A stretch of 64,000 nt of DNA from an uncultured Bacteroidota bacterium (lineage in GTDB: Bacteria > Bacteroidota > Bacteroidia > Bacteroidales > F082): positions 1 to 64,000 of the forward strand of contig CAJXKB010000001.1 of assembly GCA_913055825.1 (NCBI GenBank). The letters run 5' to 3'. The notes under the pieces were generated by a model. It had not been told where the DNA came from, did no database searches, and saw only the letters and a list, made by a program, of their open reading frames with translations. Made by a program: the position numbers and the translations under genes. This document shows, in pieces, positions 2,368-55,611 of this stretch (the stretch's first letter is position 1; each line of letters begins with the position of its first letter).

Positions 2368-2519
2368 TTCAAAGGTGGTTCAAAGTGGTTCAAGGTGGTT
2401 CAAAGTAGTTCAAAGTAGTTCAAAATAGTTCAAAGTGGTTCAAAGGTGGTTCAAAATGGTTCAAAATGGTTCAAGGTGGTTCAAAATGGTTCAAGGTGGT
2501 TCAAAGGTGGTTTAAGATT
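2368..2519. repeat. Short-repeat array 3' of four-helix-bundle gene 1 (about 14 units of 10-11 bp)
   Basis: TTCAA recurs at 2368, 2379, 2389, 2399, 2409, 2419, 2429, 2439, 2450, 2460, 2470, 2480, 2490 and 2500, then decays (tttaag at 2511). The unit is gTGGTTCAAa with variants gtag, atag, atgg and ggtgg. The array is in direct orientation to the matching array at 2951-3128, on the other side of the four-helix-bundle gene. Unit length and degeneracy exclude a CRISPR. Confidence 0.9.
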
Positions 2520-2537
2520 GTTATGGGAAAAACGTAA

Positions 2538-2924
2538 TTAATGGTATTTTGAGCCTTTTAAATTACTTTGTTTTAAGTATTGTATCAGATTATTCAATTT
2601 GACATTAAGCGTGATGGCTAAATCGTTAATCTGTTTTTGTTTTTCTATAGAAATATACTCATAGTCAAGGGCACGATAACTTTGGGACCTTACTTCTCCA
2701 CAAGAACCTTTTGATATATAAAGAAACTGTATAAATTCTTTGTTCCCTCCTCTTTCATAGCCTTCTGCAATATTATCCATTACAGAACCTGAAGCAGCTC
2801 GTATCTGATCTCGAAAACGAACATCATGCTTAAACAAATCGCCTGAGGTAATTTCCTTTATTAATATTGACAAATCTCTGGCCAACTTCCAAACCTCAAG
2901 TTCCTCAAAACGATTTACTTTCAA
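2538..2924 (-). CDS. Four-helix-bundle protein 1 (S23 / TIGR02436-like)
   Basis: The 128-residue protein opens with FEELEVWKLARDLSILI and carries the family core RAASGSVMDNIAEGYERG (about residues 42-59) followed by NKEFIQFLYISKGSCGEV. This is the four-helix-bundle family first seen encoded in 23S rRNA intervening sequences and related in fold to the Avd accessory proteins of diversity-generating retroelements. Its biochemical role is unknown. It lies between two arrays of the same 10-bp repeat, 18 bp from the 3' array and 26 bp from the 5' array. No reverse transcriptase or variable target gene is near. Confidence 0.85.
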   Translation of the reverse strand: MKVNRFEELEVWKLARDLSILIKEITSGDLFKHDVRFRDQIRAASGSVMDNIAEGYERGGNKEFIQFLYISKGSCGEVRSQSYRALDYEYISIEKQKQINDLAITLNVKLNNLIQYLKQSNLKGSKYH

Positions 2925-2950
2925 AACGATTTTTGTTAAGGGTGTTTAAT

Positions 2951-3128
2951 GTGGTTCAAAGTGGTTCAAAGTGGTTCAAAGGTTGTTCAAGGTTGTTCAA
3001 AGTGGTTCAAAGTAGTTCAAAGTAGTTCAAAGTGGTTCAAAGGTTGTTCAAGATGGTTCAAAGTGGTTCAAGATTGTTCAAGGTTGTTCAAGATGGTTCA
3101 AGATGGTTCAAGATTGTTCAAAGGTGGT
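2951..3128. repeat. Short-repeat array 5' of four-helix-bundle gene 1 (about 17 units of 10-11 bp)
   Basis: TTCAA recurs 17 times between 2955 and 3117 with a spacing of 10 bp and occasional 11. Variants cluster: gtgg units first, then gttg, gtag and gatgg. It has the same unit and orientation as 2368-2519. A plus-strand open frame crosses it (VVQSGSKVVQ-like translation) but is only the repeat read through. The gap from 3129 to the next gene end at 3195 shows nothing else. Confidence 0.9.
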
Positions 3129-7941: not shown

Positions 7942-8029
7942 ATGGTGAATGGTGAATGGTGAATGGTTAATGGTTAATGGTTAATGGTGAATGGTGAATG
8001 GTGAATGGTTAATGGTTAATGGTTAATGG
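7942..8029. repeat. Heptad array of four-helix-bundle element 2 (12 exact 7-bp units in blocks of three)
   Basis: The order is ATGGTGA x3 (7942), ATGGTTA x3 (7963), ATGGTGA x3 (7984), ATGGTTA x3 (8005), then a degenerate ATGGGG (8026). So a 42-bp higher-order unit is present twice. The array fills the whole space between the HTH regulator start (7940) and the four-helix-bundle gene. It also encodes that gene's last codons and stop (P-I-N-H-stop read on the minus strand). Confidence 0.95.
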
Positions 8030-8381
8030 GGTTGTTTTTTACATATTTGATTAAACCGTATGTTAATTTTGAGCATTGGGTAACCAACGCCAGCAGATTA
8101 TCTTGTTTCTCGTCATTGAAATATCCAACTTTATTTGATAAAATGATGAGAGTTTCCAATTCGGCAAGTGAGCCTAATGAAATATGAAGGAACTGAATTA
8201 ACTCCTTATTTCCTTTCCGGGCGGAGCCTTCGGCAATATTTGCAGATACGGAGACGGCAGCCCTTCGGAGCTGGGAAGTCATTCCAAACTGTTCATGCTT
8301 TGGGAAATCAATGGTTTCCCTGTAAACATTTTCCGCCAGTAGCATTGCTGACTTCCATACATCCAAATCTTTGTGATTCAT
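8016..8381 (-). CDS. Four-helix-bundle protein 2 (S23 / TIGR02436-like)
   Basis: The 121-residue protein has the family opening HKDLDVWKSAMLLAENVY and core RRAAVSVSANIAEGSARKGN (about residues 38-57), then KELIQFLHISLGSLAELETL. It is the closest of the three in the window to the textbook consensus. The C-terminal residues PINH and the stop are written in the heptad repeat, so the array has either grown into the gene or the gene ends by running into it. No array is visible on its 5' side (8382-8480). Function is unknown. Confidence 0.88.
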   Translation of the reverse strand: MNHKDLDVWKSAMLLAENVYRETIDFPKHEQFGMTSQLRRAAVSVSANIAEGSARKGNKELIQFLHISLGSLAELETLIILSNKVGYFNDEKQDNLLALVTQCSKLTYGLIKYVKNNPINH

Positions 8382-9733: not shown

Positions 9734-9756
9734 GCCCAAAATGTATTATTCAAAAT

Positions 9757-9798
9757 GAAAAGTGAAAAGTGAAAAATGAAAAATGAAAAACTAAAAAT
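9757..9798. repeat. Solo heptad array (6 units, GAAAAGT/GAAAAAT type)
   Basis: Units are GAAAAGT x2 (9757), GAAAAAT x2 (9771), GAAAAAC (9785) and TAAAAAT (9792), an exact 7-bp period. It ends 5 bp from the stop codon of the YitT gene. The blockwise change of variant resembles the array at 7942-8029. Confidence 0.8.
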
Positions 9799-9802
9799 GC
9801 AA

Positions 9803-52247: not shown

Positions 52248-53270
52248 CTATTTAATGAGGAAGGTGAATTTTTCAAAATTTTTCAACGCAATGCCCGTTC
52301 CCCTTGCCACTGCACGCAAAGGGTCTTCGGCAACATGCACCGGCAGCTTGGTTTTTTGGTGAATTCGTTTATCGAGACCGCGAAGCAACGAACCACCACC
52401 TGCAAGATAAATTCCGGTACGATAAATATCGGCTGAAAGTTCGGGTGGTGTTTTTTCAAGTGCATTTAATACCGCTGCCTCTACCTTCGAGATCGATTTA
52501 TCGAGACAAGCTGCAATTTCCTGATAATTCACTTTTATTTCTTTAGGAATACCGGTCAACATATCACGACCATGAACAGCATAATCATCAGGAGGATTGT
52601 CAAGCTCGGTAAGTGCTGAACCCACCTCAATTTTGATACGCTCAGCAGTCCGTTCACCAATGGTGATGTTGTGCTGTTTACGCATATATTCCTCAATATC
52701 AGCATTAAAATCGTCACCGGCAATACGGATGGAAGTATTGTTTACAATGCCGCCCAGAGCAATTACGGCAATTTCGCTGGTACCACCACCAATATCGATA
52801 ATCATATTTCCGGTGGGCTCCAGCACATCAATGCCAATTCCAATAGCAGCAGCCATAGGTTCATGGATTAGTTTAATTTCCTTGGCACCGGCCTGCTCAG
52901 CCGAATCTTTAACAGCACGTTCTTCAACCTCGGTAATTCCCGAGGGAATACAAATTACCATTTTTAAAGCCGGTGGAAAAAGCGTGTTTTTAATCCCAAT
53001 CATTTTGATCATCTCACGAATCATATATTCTGCCGATTGGAAATCAGCAATAACCCCGTCGCGTAACGGGCGGATAGTTTTAATATTATCGTGCGTTTTA
53101 CCATGCATCAGCATGGCCTTTTTGCCGACAGCAATAATTTTACCCGTATCCCTCTCCAATGCCACAATGGAAGGCTCGTCAACCACAACTTTGTCGTTGT
53201 GAATAATGATGGTATTGGCCGTTCCCAGGTCAATGGCAATCTCTTTGGTAAGAAATGAAAATAAACCCAT
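52248..53270 (-). CDS. mreB: Rod-shape-determining actin homologue MreB
   Basis: The 340-residue cytoskeletal ATPase has an amphipathic N-terminus (MGLFSFLTKEIAIDLGTANT), phosphate-1 motif IDLGTANTIIIHNDKVVVDE, phosphate-2 MIIDIGGGTSEIAVIALGGI (about 157-176) and the adenosine motif GIYLAGGGSLLRGLDKRI (about 286-303). It is first in mreBCD. The region upstream, where a promoter or the purH operon would normally lie, is taken by the repeat-flanked four-helix-bundle gene 3. Confidence 0.96.
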   Translation of the reverse strand: MGLFSFLTKEIAIDLGTANTIIIHNDKVVVDEPSIVALERDTGKIIAVGKKAMLMHGKTHDNIKTIRPLRDGVIADFQSAEYMIREMIKMIGIKNTLFPPALKMVICIPSGITEVEERAVKDSAEQAGAKEIKLIHEPMAAAIGIGIDVLEPTGNMIIDIGGGTSEIAVIALGGIVNNTSIRIAGDDFNADIEEYMRKQHNITIGERTAERIKIEVGSALTELDNPPDDYAVHGRDMLTGIPKEIKVNYQEIAACLDKSISKVEAAVLNALEKTPPELSADIYRTGIYLAGGGSLLRGLDKRIHQKTKLPVHVAEDPLRAVARGTGIALKNFEKFTFLIK

Positions 53271-53296
53271 ATTTTATTTTTTTATATTTTTCTAAC

Positions 53297-53589
53297 TAAT
53301 GCCAGAAGTTTGGAGTGCCTAAAGTGCGCTAAAGTGCCTAAAGTTGTTTTACATTATTCAATTTTACTTTCTTTTAACTCTAAACTCCAAATTCCAAACT
53401 CCAAACTAACTAATAACAGAAGTTTGGAGTGCCTAGAGTGCGCTAAAGTGCCTAGAGTTGTTTTATATTTTTCAATTTTACTTTCTTATTAACTCCCAAC
53501 TCTACACTCCAAACTTTAGGCACTCCCAACTTCCAACTTCCAACTTCCAACTCCGAACTCCAAACTTTAGGCACTCCAAACTTCAAACT
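53297..53589. repeat. Modular repeat array 3' of four-helix-bundle gene 3
   Basis: It has two tandem modules about 114 bp apart (CAGAAGTTTGGAGTGCCT at 53303 and 53417). Each contains GTGCGCTAAAGTGCCT, then a middle block gttgtttta...TTCAATTTTACTTTCTT, then heptads of the AACTCCA type. The array ends are a perfect 21-bp inverted repeat (53305-53325 versus 53564-53584; core TTTGGAGTGCCTAAAGT), so the whole array could fold back. It fills most of the 319-bp gap between mreB and the four-helix-bundle gene; the remainder (53271-53296) is an AT-rich mreB leader. Confidence 0.9.
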
Positions 53590-53955
53590 CTACCTCCCTT
53601 GTTTCATCTTTTTCCCTATGGATGTGAAGATGGCAAGAAGTTCATTTGCTTCCGACAAAATTAATTGAATTTCTTCAGAATCCATCCAACTTAATTCAGC
53701 AATTATATCAAGCCAATAAACTGTTTCACTGGCTTCACTTTCACAAATTTTAATTTTATTCGCAAAATCAGCTTTACTCCTTCCCCTATTAGCTTCTCGA
53801 TAATTTGCTCCAATACTTGTTCCCGATTTAGTAATTTGATTTCTTATCACCCTGCCTTCCGTTGAATGAGGCAATGAACCAGATAATTTAATAATACGAA
53901 TTGCAAATAATTTTGTTCTGTATTCCAGTTGTTTACTAAAATCCTTATTATTCAT
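53590..53955 (-). CDS. Four-helix-bundle protein 3 (S23 / TIGR02436-like, divergent branch)
   Basis: The 121-residue protein has the family pattern in a more divergent form: NQITKSGTSIGANYREANRG (about 40-59) where the others have RAAxSVxxNIAEG, then RSKADFANKIKICESEASET VYWLDIIAEL. Its N-terminus (LEYRTKLFAIRIIKLSGSLP) fits helix 1. The stop codon adjoins the last AACTC heptad of the 3' array. It lies between purH and mreB, neighbours in many Bacteroidota, so it looks inserted there. Function is unknown. Confidence 0.85.
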   Translation of the reverse strand: MNNKDFSKQLEYRTKLFAIRIIKLSGSLPHSTEGRVIRNQITKSGTSIGANYREANRGRSKADFANKIKICESEASETVYWLDIIAELSWMDSEEIQLILSEANELLAIFTSIGKKMKQGR

Positions 53956-53977
53956 TTTATTAATTAATGCCTCGAAT

Positions 53978-54082
53978 TTTTAGTGCCTAAAGTTGTTTTA
54001 TATATTTCAATTCTACTTTCTTCTAACTCCAAACTCCAAACTCCGAACTTTAGGCACTCCAAACTTAAAACCCCCAACTTTC
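53978..54082. repeat. Modular repeat array 5' of four-helix-bundle gene 3
   Basis: It is a single copy of the module seen at 53297-53589: AGTGCCTAAAGTT (53982-53994), the middle block ttcaattctactttctt, heptads AACTCCA/AACTCCG, and the inverse AACTTTAGGCACT (54046-54058). So it is also bounded by an inverted repeat (13 bp). Same module, same orientation, on the other side of the gene. Confidence 0.88.
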
Positions 54083-54096
54083 TCCCGCAAATATAC

Positions 54097-55611
54097 TCAA
54101 TGTTTGAAATGTCGGATACCTGTGAAAACCATAGGAACATCATGTTCATTGCAATAGTCGATGGAGTCCTTATCACGAATAGAACCACCAGGCTGAATTA
54201 CTGCTTTAATACCTGCTTTGTGTGCCAGTTCCACCGAATCGGCAAAAGGGAAAAAAGCATCAGAGGCCATCACAGCGCCCTCCAAGGGTAATTCAAAACG
54301 TCGGGCTTTTTCGATGGCGTGCTTTAATGCATCAACCCGCGAAGTTTGTCCGGTACCGGAACCAATAAGCTGCTTATTGTTTACCAAAACAATGGCATTC
54401 GATTTAGTATGCTTTACCAGTTTATTGGCAAAAAGTAAATCTTCAACCTGTTCAGCCGAAGGGGCGGTTTTTGTTTTCACTTCCAATTGCTCCGCAGTTT
54501 CTGTCACCGTATCAAATTCCTGCCACAACACGCCATTTAATGCGGAACGGAATTGTTCATTGGAGAATTTATACTTTTTTTTCTTTAAAATGATACGGTT
54601 CTTTTTGGATTTTAATATTTCCAAAGCCTCTGTGTCATAATCAGGGGCAATGATAATTTCAAAAAAGAGTTTATTCATCACATTGGCCACATCAGGGGTG
54701 ATACTCCGGTTACTTGCCAACACACCGCCAAAAGCTGAAACAGGATCACCGGCCAGGGCATCTTTCCATGCATCCATCAAATTTTCGCGCGAAGCGAGGC
54801 CACAGGCATTATTATGCTTCAGCACGGCAAAAGTACATTCGTCAAAATCATCAATCAGATGGACGGCCGCATCCAAATCCTGCAAATTATTATAGGAAAT
54901 GGCTTTCCCGTGTAGTTGCTCAAAAATATCATTAAGATTGCCGAAAAATACACCCTGCTGATGAGGGTTCTCACCATAACGCAGCACAGTAGCATCTGAT
55001 TTACTTTGTTTAAAAGCCCTGATATTTCCGGGATTTATCCAATTGAAAATGGCCGTGTCATAATGCGAGCTCACTTCAAAAGCCCTGGCAGCAAAATACC
55101 GCCTTTCATCCCCGGTGGTATGCCCGTTATTTTTGTCCAATACTTCCAGCAATTCAGTATATTGATCCACCGATGGCACCACCAATACATCTTTATAATT
55201 TTTGGCAGCCGCACGAATCAACGAAATACCGCCAATATCTATCTTTTCAACTATTTTTGACGAATCATCTGTCGTGGAGAGTGTTTCTTCAAAAGGATAT
55301 AAATCCACCACCACCAAATCAAATGCAGGAATTTCATATTCCGAAAGTTGACGCATATCTTCGGCCAACTCACGCCTCGCTAATATGCCGCCAAATACTT
55401 TGGGGTGCAAAGTTTTAACCCTGCCACCCAAAAGAGCAGGATAGGAAGTAAGCTTTTCAATGGGGGTAGCATCATATCCGCTGCTTTTTATAAAATCGTA
55501 AGTTCCCCCGGTAGAATACATTTCTACGTTAAGCTCCCTGAGTTTTTTCAGAAGAGGTTCTAATCCTTCTTTATGAAACACTGAAAGGAGTGCAGTTTTA
55601 ATTTTTTTCAC
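54097..55611 (-). CDS. purH: Bifunctional AICAR transformylase / IMP cyclohydrolase
   Basis: The 504-residue enzyme performs the last two steps of IMP synthesis. The IMPCHase domain (about 1-190) has VEMYSTGGTYDFIKSSGYDA and LHPKVFGGILARRE. The AICARFTase domain has ISYNNLQDLDAAVHLIDDF (about 238-256) and the active-site AVLKHNNACGLASRENLMDA (about 261-280). The C-terminus ends VFTGIRHFKH as in the family. The start is GTG at 55611. Confidence 0.95.
   Translation of the reverse strand: MKKIKTALLSVFHKEGLEPLLKKLRELNVEMYSTGGTYDFIKSSGYDATPIEKLTSYPALLGGRVKTLHPKVFGGILARRELAEDMRQLSEYEIPAFDLVVVDLYPFEETLSTTDDSSKIVEKIDIGGISLIRAAAKNYKDVLVVPSVDQYTELLEVLDKNNGHTTGDERRYFAARAFEVSSHYDTAIFNWINPGNIRAFKQSKSDATVLRYGENPHQQGVFFGNLNDIFEQLHGKAISYNNLQDLDAAVHLIDDFDECTFAVLKHNNACGLASRENLMDAWKDALAGDPVSAFGGVLASNRSITPDVANVMNKLFFEIIIAPDYDTEALEILKSKKNRIILKKKKYKFSNEQFRSALNGVLWQEFDTVTETAEQLEVKTKTAPSAEQVEDLLFANKLVKHTKSNAIVLVNNKQLIGSGTGQTSRVDALKHAIEKARRFELPLEGAVMASDAFFPFADSVELAHKAGIKAVIQPGGSIRDKDSIDYCNEHDVPMVFTGIRHFKH

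Follow-up and report, generated by a model that had tools for sequence, protein, structure and literature searches.

An insert with a 23S rRNA intervening-sequence protein gene and inverted repeat arms between purH and mreB of an uncultured Bacteroidota bacterium

What separates purH from mreB in an uncultured bacterium of the Bacteroidota, and how did it come to lie there? In the 64,000-nt stretch of DNA analysed here (the window; contig CAJXKB010000001.1, positions 1 to 64,000), a small gene flanked by palindromic modules and short tandem repeats stands between these two essential genes. Here, we examine the parts of this insert, its absence from related genomes, the folding of its repeats and the occurrence of the same arrangement elsewhere. 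We observe an insertion, arms capable of folding, the same anatomy in many phyla, the position of these genes relative to their hosts, a link between repeat motif and protein clade, and modules without a gene. The insert is probably one copy of a mobile foldback element that resembles the intervening sequences (IVSs) of 23S rRNA but resides in mRNA, although movement itself was not observed.

The initial annotation, made without database searches, placed a four-helix-bundle gene between purH and mreB, and family searches bear this out: the product matches PF05635, the '23S rRNA intervening-sequence protein' (IVP), at E = 4.6e-20 and the TIGR02436 four helix bundle at E = 2.5e-26. The names purH and mreB are presumed from recognition of the proteins, by us and in that annotation, and not from a family search; the names tsf, cysS, nqrD-like, kdsC, ubiA, RND efflux and PII-like used below are presumed likewise, and those of cas and nrd genes were taken from record annotation. 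No transposase was found in the insert, in which the IVP gene is the sole open reading frame (ORF) of at least 60 amino acids that does not run mainly through the arrays (ORFs through the arrays were outside the family search). Within this element, the repeats are accompanied by the PF05635 gene and not by a Y1 transposase. Around the IVP gene lie three copies of a module in which AACTCCA heptads are combined with AGTTTGGA/AGTGCCTA units and a stretch of TTCAATTTTACTTTC. They are arranged as first described, about twice on one side as a 114-bp tandem and once on the other: the mreB-side copies (53292–53373 and 53406–53487) are 93% identical over 82 nt, and the purH-side copy (53982–54049) is 88% identical to the first of these over 68 nt. 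The inverted repeats that had been said to close each side were also located, as a perfect 21-nt pair (53305–53325/53564–53584) and several perfect 13-nt pairs, and terminal inverted repeats (the outer arms in Table 1) provide a closing stem round the ORF. The reading of the repeats as heptads was right only in part: AACTCCA heptads are present, and ACTTCCA heptads occupy 53522–53567, but the arrays are not pure heptads, as the tandem-repeat search (TRF) gives 7-mers mixed with the 9-mer AGTGCCTAA.

Table 1. Features of the purH–mreB insert and of the other IVP elements in the window.
Feature	Position	Strand	Basis and remarks
mreB, downstream neighbour, co-directional	52248..53270	-	ORF; next to purH in 28 relative loci
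Whole inserted element	53294..54078	-	~785 bp; edges set by eye, +/- few bases, against empty purH–mreB junctions
IVP-less hairpin module copy 1, 114-bp unit	53292..53405	-	Repeat families; first 2 bases perhaps junction; dispersed genome copies
Outer arm, mreB side	53306..53328		23 nt, 96% complementary to 54044–54066; paired in RNA minimum free energy (MFE) fold
AACTCCA heptads	53376..53407		Tandem-repeat search
IVP-less hairpin module copy 2, 114-bp unit	53406..53519	-	Repeat family; 53406–53540 fold z = −5.6
Heptad array with ACTTTAGGCACT blocks, 3′ of IVP gene	53491..53589		51-bp period
IVP (four-helix-bundle) gene, 121 aa	53590..53955	-	PF05635, TIGR02436; solved relative 2rld
Single hairpin module with heptads, 5′ of IVP gene	53977..54066	-	Repeats; 53975–54075 fold z = −3.1
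Outer arm, purH side	54044..54066		Partner of 53306–53328
purH, upstream neighbour, co-directional	54097..55611	-	ORF
10-mer GTTCAAAGGT-type arrays, both sides of element 1	2368..3128		Direct orientation, not inverted
Second IVP gene of the window (element 1)	2538..2924	-	PF05635 search
ATGGTGA heptad array, 12 copies, adjoining element 2	7942..8029		Seen on one side only
Third IVP gene of the window (element 2)	8016..8381	-	PF05635 search

The insert was compared with the same junction in related genomes. purH is present in 57 of 60 genomes, the one studied here included, and the best 30 loci of the 57 were inspected: our own, 28 that were evaluable and one on a contig ending before mreB. purH is followed directly by mreB in all 28 evaluable relative loci, at a gap of 19–274 bp (stop codon counted); the corresponding gap in our genome measures 829 bp. 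No match to the window IVP was found in the gap at any of these 28 loci (tblastn, E 1e-4), and the arrays are missing from them too. It is therefore an insertion, as the initial annotation had suspected. The remnants of the junction, TGAGTATATTTGCGGGAGAAA and AGAAAAATATAAAAAAATAAAAT, are similar to the junctions that are empty within the genus. Both edges of the insert bear AGAAA, which may represent a 5-bp target duplication; this was judged by eye at a single site with A-rich flanks and is no proof. As for the ends of the element, for which the foldback arms had offered candidates, the outer 23-nt pair falls about 12 bp inside the edges inferred from empty junctions. Chance and ordinary vertical descent, considered as alternatives, were ruled out by the junction comparison together with a genome-wide motif count.

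Folding predictions support the suggestion of foldback arms with an RNA structure, at the level of computation only. Folded as RNA of the strand that encodes purH and mreB, the whole insert reaches z = −6.8 (20 shuffles) with its outer arms paired; two sub-regions fold as well (Table 1), and the module at 53290–53405 alone folds no better than shuffles (z = −0.6). The repeat is not a product of chance, given the degree of this folding and the genome-wide counts of GTGCCTAAAG, which are 56 for the motif itself and 5 for its pattern in reverse. Among IVP loci of the same bacterial family, described below, 42 of 59 form at least 15 pairs between the two flanks in the MFE fold, compared with 16 of 58 when the 3′ flank is foreign. 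Covariation was analysed at a different junction, between RND-efflux and PII-like genes (RND|PII), where a sister element is available in seven copies; a 35-pair stem drawn from one row and 500 shuffles were used. The cells of this stem are paired in 84.4% of cases (shuffled mean, 78.7; 0 of 500 as high), the covariation score is 0.146 (shuffled, 0.075; 0 of 500 as high) and 14 cells carry double changes (shuffled, 8.8; 2 of 500 as high), while slid versions of the stem score 0.004–0.121 with 16–40% of cells paired. The number of pairs with a double change, six, is not above shuffles (mean, 6.4). In four successive heptads, A-U changes to C-G on both sides in the same three of the seven sequences, two of these three C-G rows being nearly identical. 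The arms thus covary at one junction, RND|PII. The covariation by which the initial annotation was to be checked is present in these sister copies but not in the purH–mreB element itself; what would have refuted that annotation, namely the same gene and arrays in all relatives with no covariation in the arms, failed on both counts.

The arrangement recurs throughout the bacterial family, in which 118 of 119 genomes contain PF05635 matches (1–15 each). We sampled 60 IVP genes from 59 genomes, hand-picked among the listed best-scoring matches, with up to 9 kb on either side; with one exception they are 9 kb or more from the contig start, and 59 entered the arm scoring and 58 the position counts. 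Counts over related loci or genomes, here and below, are not independent samples. An array (TRF, period 5–25) lies within 400 bp of 57 of the 60 IVP genes, compared with 156 of 541 control ORFs situated more than 2.5 kb from an IVP gene (34 of 121 for short control ORFs); the three IVP genes without an array at the set threshold are L150 (partly N), L151 and L165. Arrays cover 41% of intergenic DNA at 0–300 bp from the gene, 12% at 300–1000 bp, 5% at 1–3 kb and 4% beyond. The unit, mostly 7 bp long, varies between elements and is often inverted across the two sides (AGACCTT/TCTAAGG, TTAGCCA/CTAATGG and GGGTTTAC/AAACCCGT). When the 5′ flank is locally aligned to the 3′ flank in reverse complement, 27 of 59 IVP genes have an inverted-arm score of at least 40, versus 18 of 885 swapped flanks (some from homologous loci) and 5 of 562 neighbour ORFs; the other 32 score below 40. 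With flanks compared in direct orientation, 13 of 59 IVP genes reach at least 40, so that a minority have direct arrays, like element 1 of the window.

These arrays could instead have arisen in place by replication slippage at gene ends, with IVP genes merely landing or surviving there. Such an origin has been proposed for heptamers, as cited in PMC4679880, and it would accommodate the arrays beside control ORFs, the direct flank similarity of some IVP genes and the presence, at otherwise tight junctions, of IVP-less stop-codon arrays of unrelated heptads (L213, L214, L218; L372, L373). Slippage does not, however, yield the same repeat in inverted orientation on both sides of a gene, a motif shared by clade members at different junctions, or a dispersed module of about 100 bp with a non-repeat middle, and we consider it unlikely as the origin of the arrays. 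A mobile foldback element remains our preferred reading.

The same anatomy extends far beyond this family. Named genome contigs, many from metagenome-assembled genomes, were scanned with a seven-sequence IVP alignment and the best 80 loci were taken; 79 entered the analysis (L304 omitted), 77 had enough flank, and phyla were read from record titles. Of these 77 diverse loci, 47 have inverted arms that score 30 or more, compared with 20 of 1,540 swapped pairs and 2 of 161 other ORFs taken from these loci; the remaining 30 score lower. The 25 diverse loci that reach at least 40 include Planctomycetota, Verrucomicrobia, Kiritimatiellae, Alpha-, Beta- and Gammaproteobacteria, Clostridia, Selenomonadales, Acidobacteria, Chloroflexia, Poribacteria and Bacteroidota. 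Plasmids carry such loci too: 13 of 30 plasmid records were used, and of these 13 loci 10 score at least 29, in this case without a swap control (cyanobacterial, 9 of 12; Gemmatirosa of the Gemmatimonadota, 1 of 1), an example being the TAGGGAG/CTCCCTA arms of a Nostoc plasmid. The purH–mreB element is not inside a 23S rRNA gene, and a search with six 23S rRNA motifs, a weak test, gave no exact match in any locus analysed. Separately, cas6|cas4 and cas10|cmr3 junctions on cyanobacterial plasmids (loci L250, L251 and L259) are occupied by IVP genes that have repeat arms.

Relatives of the window IVP at 64–73% identity, one of which (G005) shares the genus while the others come from different genera, lie at junctions other than purH–mreB and carry the vocabulary of the window (AGTGCCTA, AGTACTTA and AGTGAGCTA). 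In the wider subfamily of the window IVP, 28 of 31 loci had enough flank, and 23 of these 28 have inverted arms scoring 30 or more, compared with 74 of 756 swapped pairs, a high background that stems from the motif being common to the subfamily. Similarity of the 5′ arms at different junctions falls with protein identity: across 99 distinct IVP loci, from which 88 same-junction pairs were excluded by DNA similarity, the pairs that score 30 or higher number 23 of 64 where the IVPs are at least 60% identical, 6 of 103 at 50–60%, 14 of 705 at 40–50% and 34 of 3,882 below 40%. At the level of genomes, AGTGCCTARAGT is present in at least four copies in 9 of the 11 genomes that encode a window-type IVP (at least 60% identity; the match in G076 is partial) versus 7 of 108 without (Fisher 6e-8, kinship ignored). 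The IVP and motif searches covered 119 family genomes each, which we took to be the same set, the 24 without an IVP match being unlisted. Exceptions occur in both directions: the motif is abundant in G068, G070 and G079, in which no window-type IVP was detected, and G032 and G076 have such an IVP with a single motif site each; in G080 all four motif sites are inside its own element. By these alignments and counts, which consider nucleotide and protein sequences alone, the repeat motif tracks the IVP clade across junctions.

Modules also occur without the gene. A module query gives 45 genomic matches, of which many are simply runs of heptads. Beyond the window, eight copies span 80% or more of the query at 74–88% identity (contigs C27, C98, C112 and C62, with two each on C16 and C77), and no PF05635 match was found on the contigs of those eight copies. 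The copy on C27 sits at kdsC–ubiA, where the gap is 391 bp in our genome and 11–26 bp in 10 of the 17 relatives with both genes (24 loci taken); L372, L373 and L376 have unrelated repeats there, with gaps of 123–346 bp. The repeats of L372 and L373 are short-period arrays (TGACAAC-like; GAAGAGAC and TTTGACAACCG) without an IVP gene. The window itself contains two further IVP genes with adjoining arrays (Table 1). It also contains IVP-less arrays, one at 544–600 with a unit similar to the GTTCAAAGGT of element 1 and one of AAAATGA heptads at 9752–9799. At the IVP gene on contig C94 of the same genome, no arrays were seen by eye.

IVP genes hold a consistent position relative to host genes. They are co-directional with the upstream gene in 57 of 58 family loci, compared with 446 of 639 control ORFs, in 46 of 53 diverse loci (7 of 53 are not; no control) and in 9 of 12 annotated plasmid loci (exceptions, L249, L252 and L257). 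Relative to the upstream stop codon, the array of the family set begins at a median of −2 nt and within 12 nt in 35 of 41 cases, and the arm begins within 12 nt in 18 of 26 diverse loci. Co-direction and a start at the stop codon fit a gene that rides on host transcripts, an inference made without a promoter scan. Co-direction with the gene in front would also suit a retroelement, in which IVP would be the partner of a reverse transcriptase acting in trans on hairpin RNA, similar to Avd of diversity-generating retroelements; PF05635 resembles Avd, and sequence and structure alignments suggest homology, according to PMC10053308. The genomes speak against this: PF00078 has no match in our genome, a 96.9% complete draft, or in 62 others of the 119, some of which are rich in IVP genes (G015, 11; G021, 10; G022, 9). 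Dependence on a reverse transcriptase is thus disfavoured and in our estimate highly improbable, although fragmented drafts and reverse transcriptases outside PF00078 leave it possible.

Particular junctions are occupied repeatedly. We surveyed RND-efflux|PII-like and tsf|cysS, taking the best 30 loci at each, from 55 and 54 genomes with a match, respectively. Of the 30 RND-efflux|PII-like loci, 20 are empty (2–3 bp from stop to start), 5 contain an IVP element (489–516 bp), 1 retains a right-arm remnant and 4 have short arrays but no IVP gene, three of these arrays being clear heptads of other units. Among the 30 tsf|cysS loci, the 12 closest (L219–L230) have cysS within 900 bp, and 8 of these 12 contain an IVP gene, co-directional with tsf in 1 and with cysS in 7, with differing heptads. 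At this convergent junction, the bidirectional terminator of L220 and L227 is missing in 7 of the 8 IVP loci (by eye; the cysS side of L230 was not included), L223 has heptads and the terminator without an IVP gene, and L226 has another insert. Here the element apparently takes the place of the terminator between the genes instead of inserting cleanly. Before the same nqrD-like gene, two different repeats flank the IVP genes of L134 and L135. Such repeated occupancy indicates that the same places are used repeatedly and that the event can be a replacement. Apart from this, in L135 (8372–8974) an nqrC-like gene runs into the heptad array, which encodes a C-terminal tail before the stop codon. 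The idea that the heptad is copied from the target site was also considered and not adopted: it is suggestive for TAAGC heptads, where the empty form of the junction in L195, L198, L200 and L207 is TAAGCCATG, but does not hold at purH–mreB.

The location after stop codons, the co-direction and the apparent replacement of a terminator at tsf–cysS could alternatively mark a domesticated regulatory cassette, whose hairpin controls polarity or processing between gene pairs and whose IVP is an RNA-binding regulator. A cassette of this kind would hardly be so sporadic, being absent from purH–mreB in 28 of 28 evaluable loci and from RND|PII in 20 of 30, nor would it come with different repeats and in both orientations at tsf–cysS, or with two different repeats before the nqrD-like gene; of the explanations weighed here, this one receives the least credence from us.

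For the mobile foldback element that we favour, we propose the following mechanism, most of which is inferred. The element carries IVP as its only family-assigned gene and is bounded by inverted short-repeat arms, built mainly of 7-mers across the family and of a mixture of 7-mers and 9-mers here. The element would be transcribed from the host gene in front; its arms would form a long RNA duplex that RNase III cuts, so that the element drops out of the host mRNA, an exit inferred from the likeness to the 23S rRNA IVS. IVP may bind its own repeat duplex and may help to copy or insert the element and, in trans, its gene-less relatives. The route would require no transposase or reverse transcriptase of its own, and would probably consist of host replication or repair at work on the hairpin. 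The S23 protein of Coxiella is reported to be apparently not made in vivo (PMC4990558), so that IVP may not drive movement. Xcc0516, a solved IVP relative, is assembled from five four-helix bundles, according to a title cited in PMC3936711 and PMC10053308. More tentatively, and beyond what we would call probable, IVP elements may form a phylum-spanning mobile class without transposase, recombinase or reverse transcriptase, in which IVP, pentameric in the solved relative, recognises a clade-specific repeat duplex, inserts at gene ends, leaves at the RNA level and mobilises gene-less hairpins in trans; both the 23S rRNA IVS and the heptamer repeats known from cyanobacteria, Xanthomonas, Beggiatoa relatives and Bacteroidota would then be its products.

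Several pieces of this picture are known: IVSs with an S23 ORF in rRNA, heptamer repeats as separate curiosities, and IVP genes in cas loci. Within the scope of our open-access search (preprints and most subscription journals lay outside it), no literature joining IVP genes to repeat arrays was found, and non-rRNA IVP genes enclosed by clade-specific inverted repeat arms across phyla had not been seen. Their association would merge the function of the S23/IVP protein and the origin of bacterial heptamer repeats into one testable question, and IVP genes beside cas, nqrD-like or tsf–cysS genes would be re-read as inserts rather than functional partners. If mobilisation in trans without a transposase were demonstrated, the IVP element would be a new kind of mobile element.

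Among known systems, REP/BIME sequences with RAYT and MITEs consist of dispersed palindromic intergenic modules together with a rarer copy that bears a protein gene. IVP elements likewise combine dispersed modules with a rarer gene-bearing copy; they differ in having no transposase, their protein being a four-helix bundle without a known catalytic role. The STRRs of cyanobacteria are heptamer repeats. Such repeats, described for TAACTGA in PMC4679880 and for GGGAATC and GGGGA(C/T)T of Xanthomonas and Nostoc in PMC4692102, where X. campestris has 186 repeats and 70 cases of two convergent (inverted) sites, resemble our arrays as tandem 7-bp units, mostly intergenic and near stop or start codons (STRR/LSSR type). 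In contrast to these, the arrays described here are arms of IVP elements; no link between repeat and IVP appears in the accessible portions of the two papers, in both of which the term S23 occurs 0 times. Diversity-generating retroelements share with our element a protein apparently homologous to IVP, Avd (PMC10053308), and differ in that our draft genome has no PF00078 reverse transcriptase match. The 18 IVP genes in cas loci, often with cas4 or cas6, were presented in PMC3936711 as an interesting function of CRISPR loci, whereas the repeat arms at the cas junctions of L250, L251 and L259 suggest inserts; the reported link between IVP and CRISPR may be one of insertion only. A further close system is the 23S rRNA IVS of Coxiella, described in PMC4990558 as a selfish element with an S23 ORF and terminal inverted repeats; the same source cites a theory that the IVS ORF served mobility and reports cleavage of the IVS by RNase III in vitro. 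Our insert shares with it the protein family, a single ORF, stem-closing terminal inverted repeats and a length of a few hundred bases. Unlike the rRNA IVS, it lies in a protein-coding junction, its arms consist of short tandem repeats with a motif that varies from clade to clade, and it is accompanied by several IVP copies per genome and by dispersed modules without the gene.
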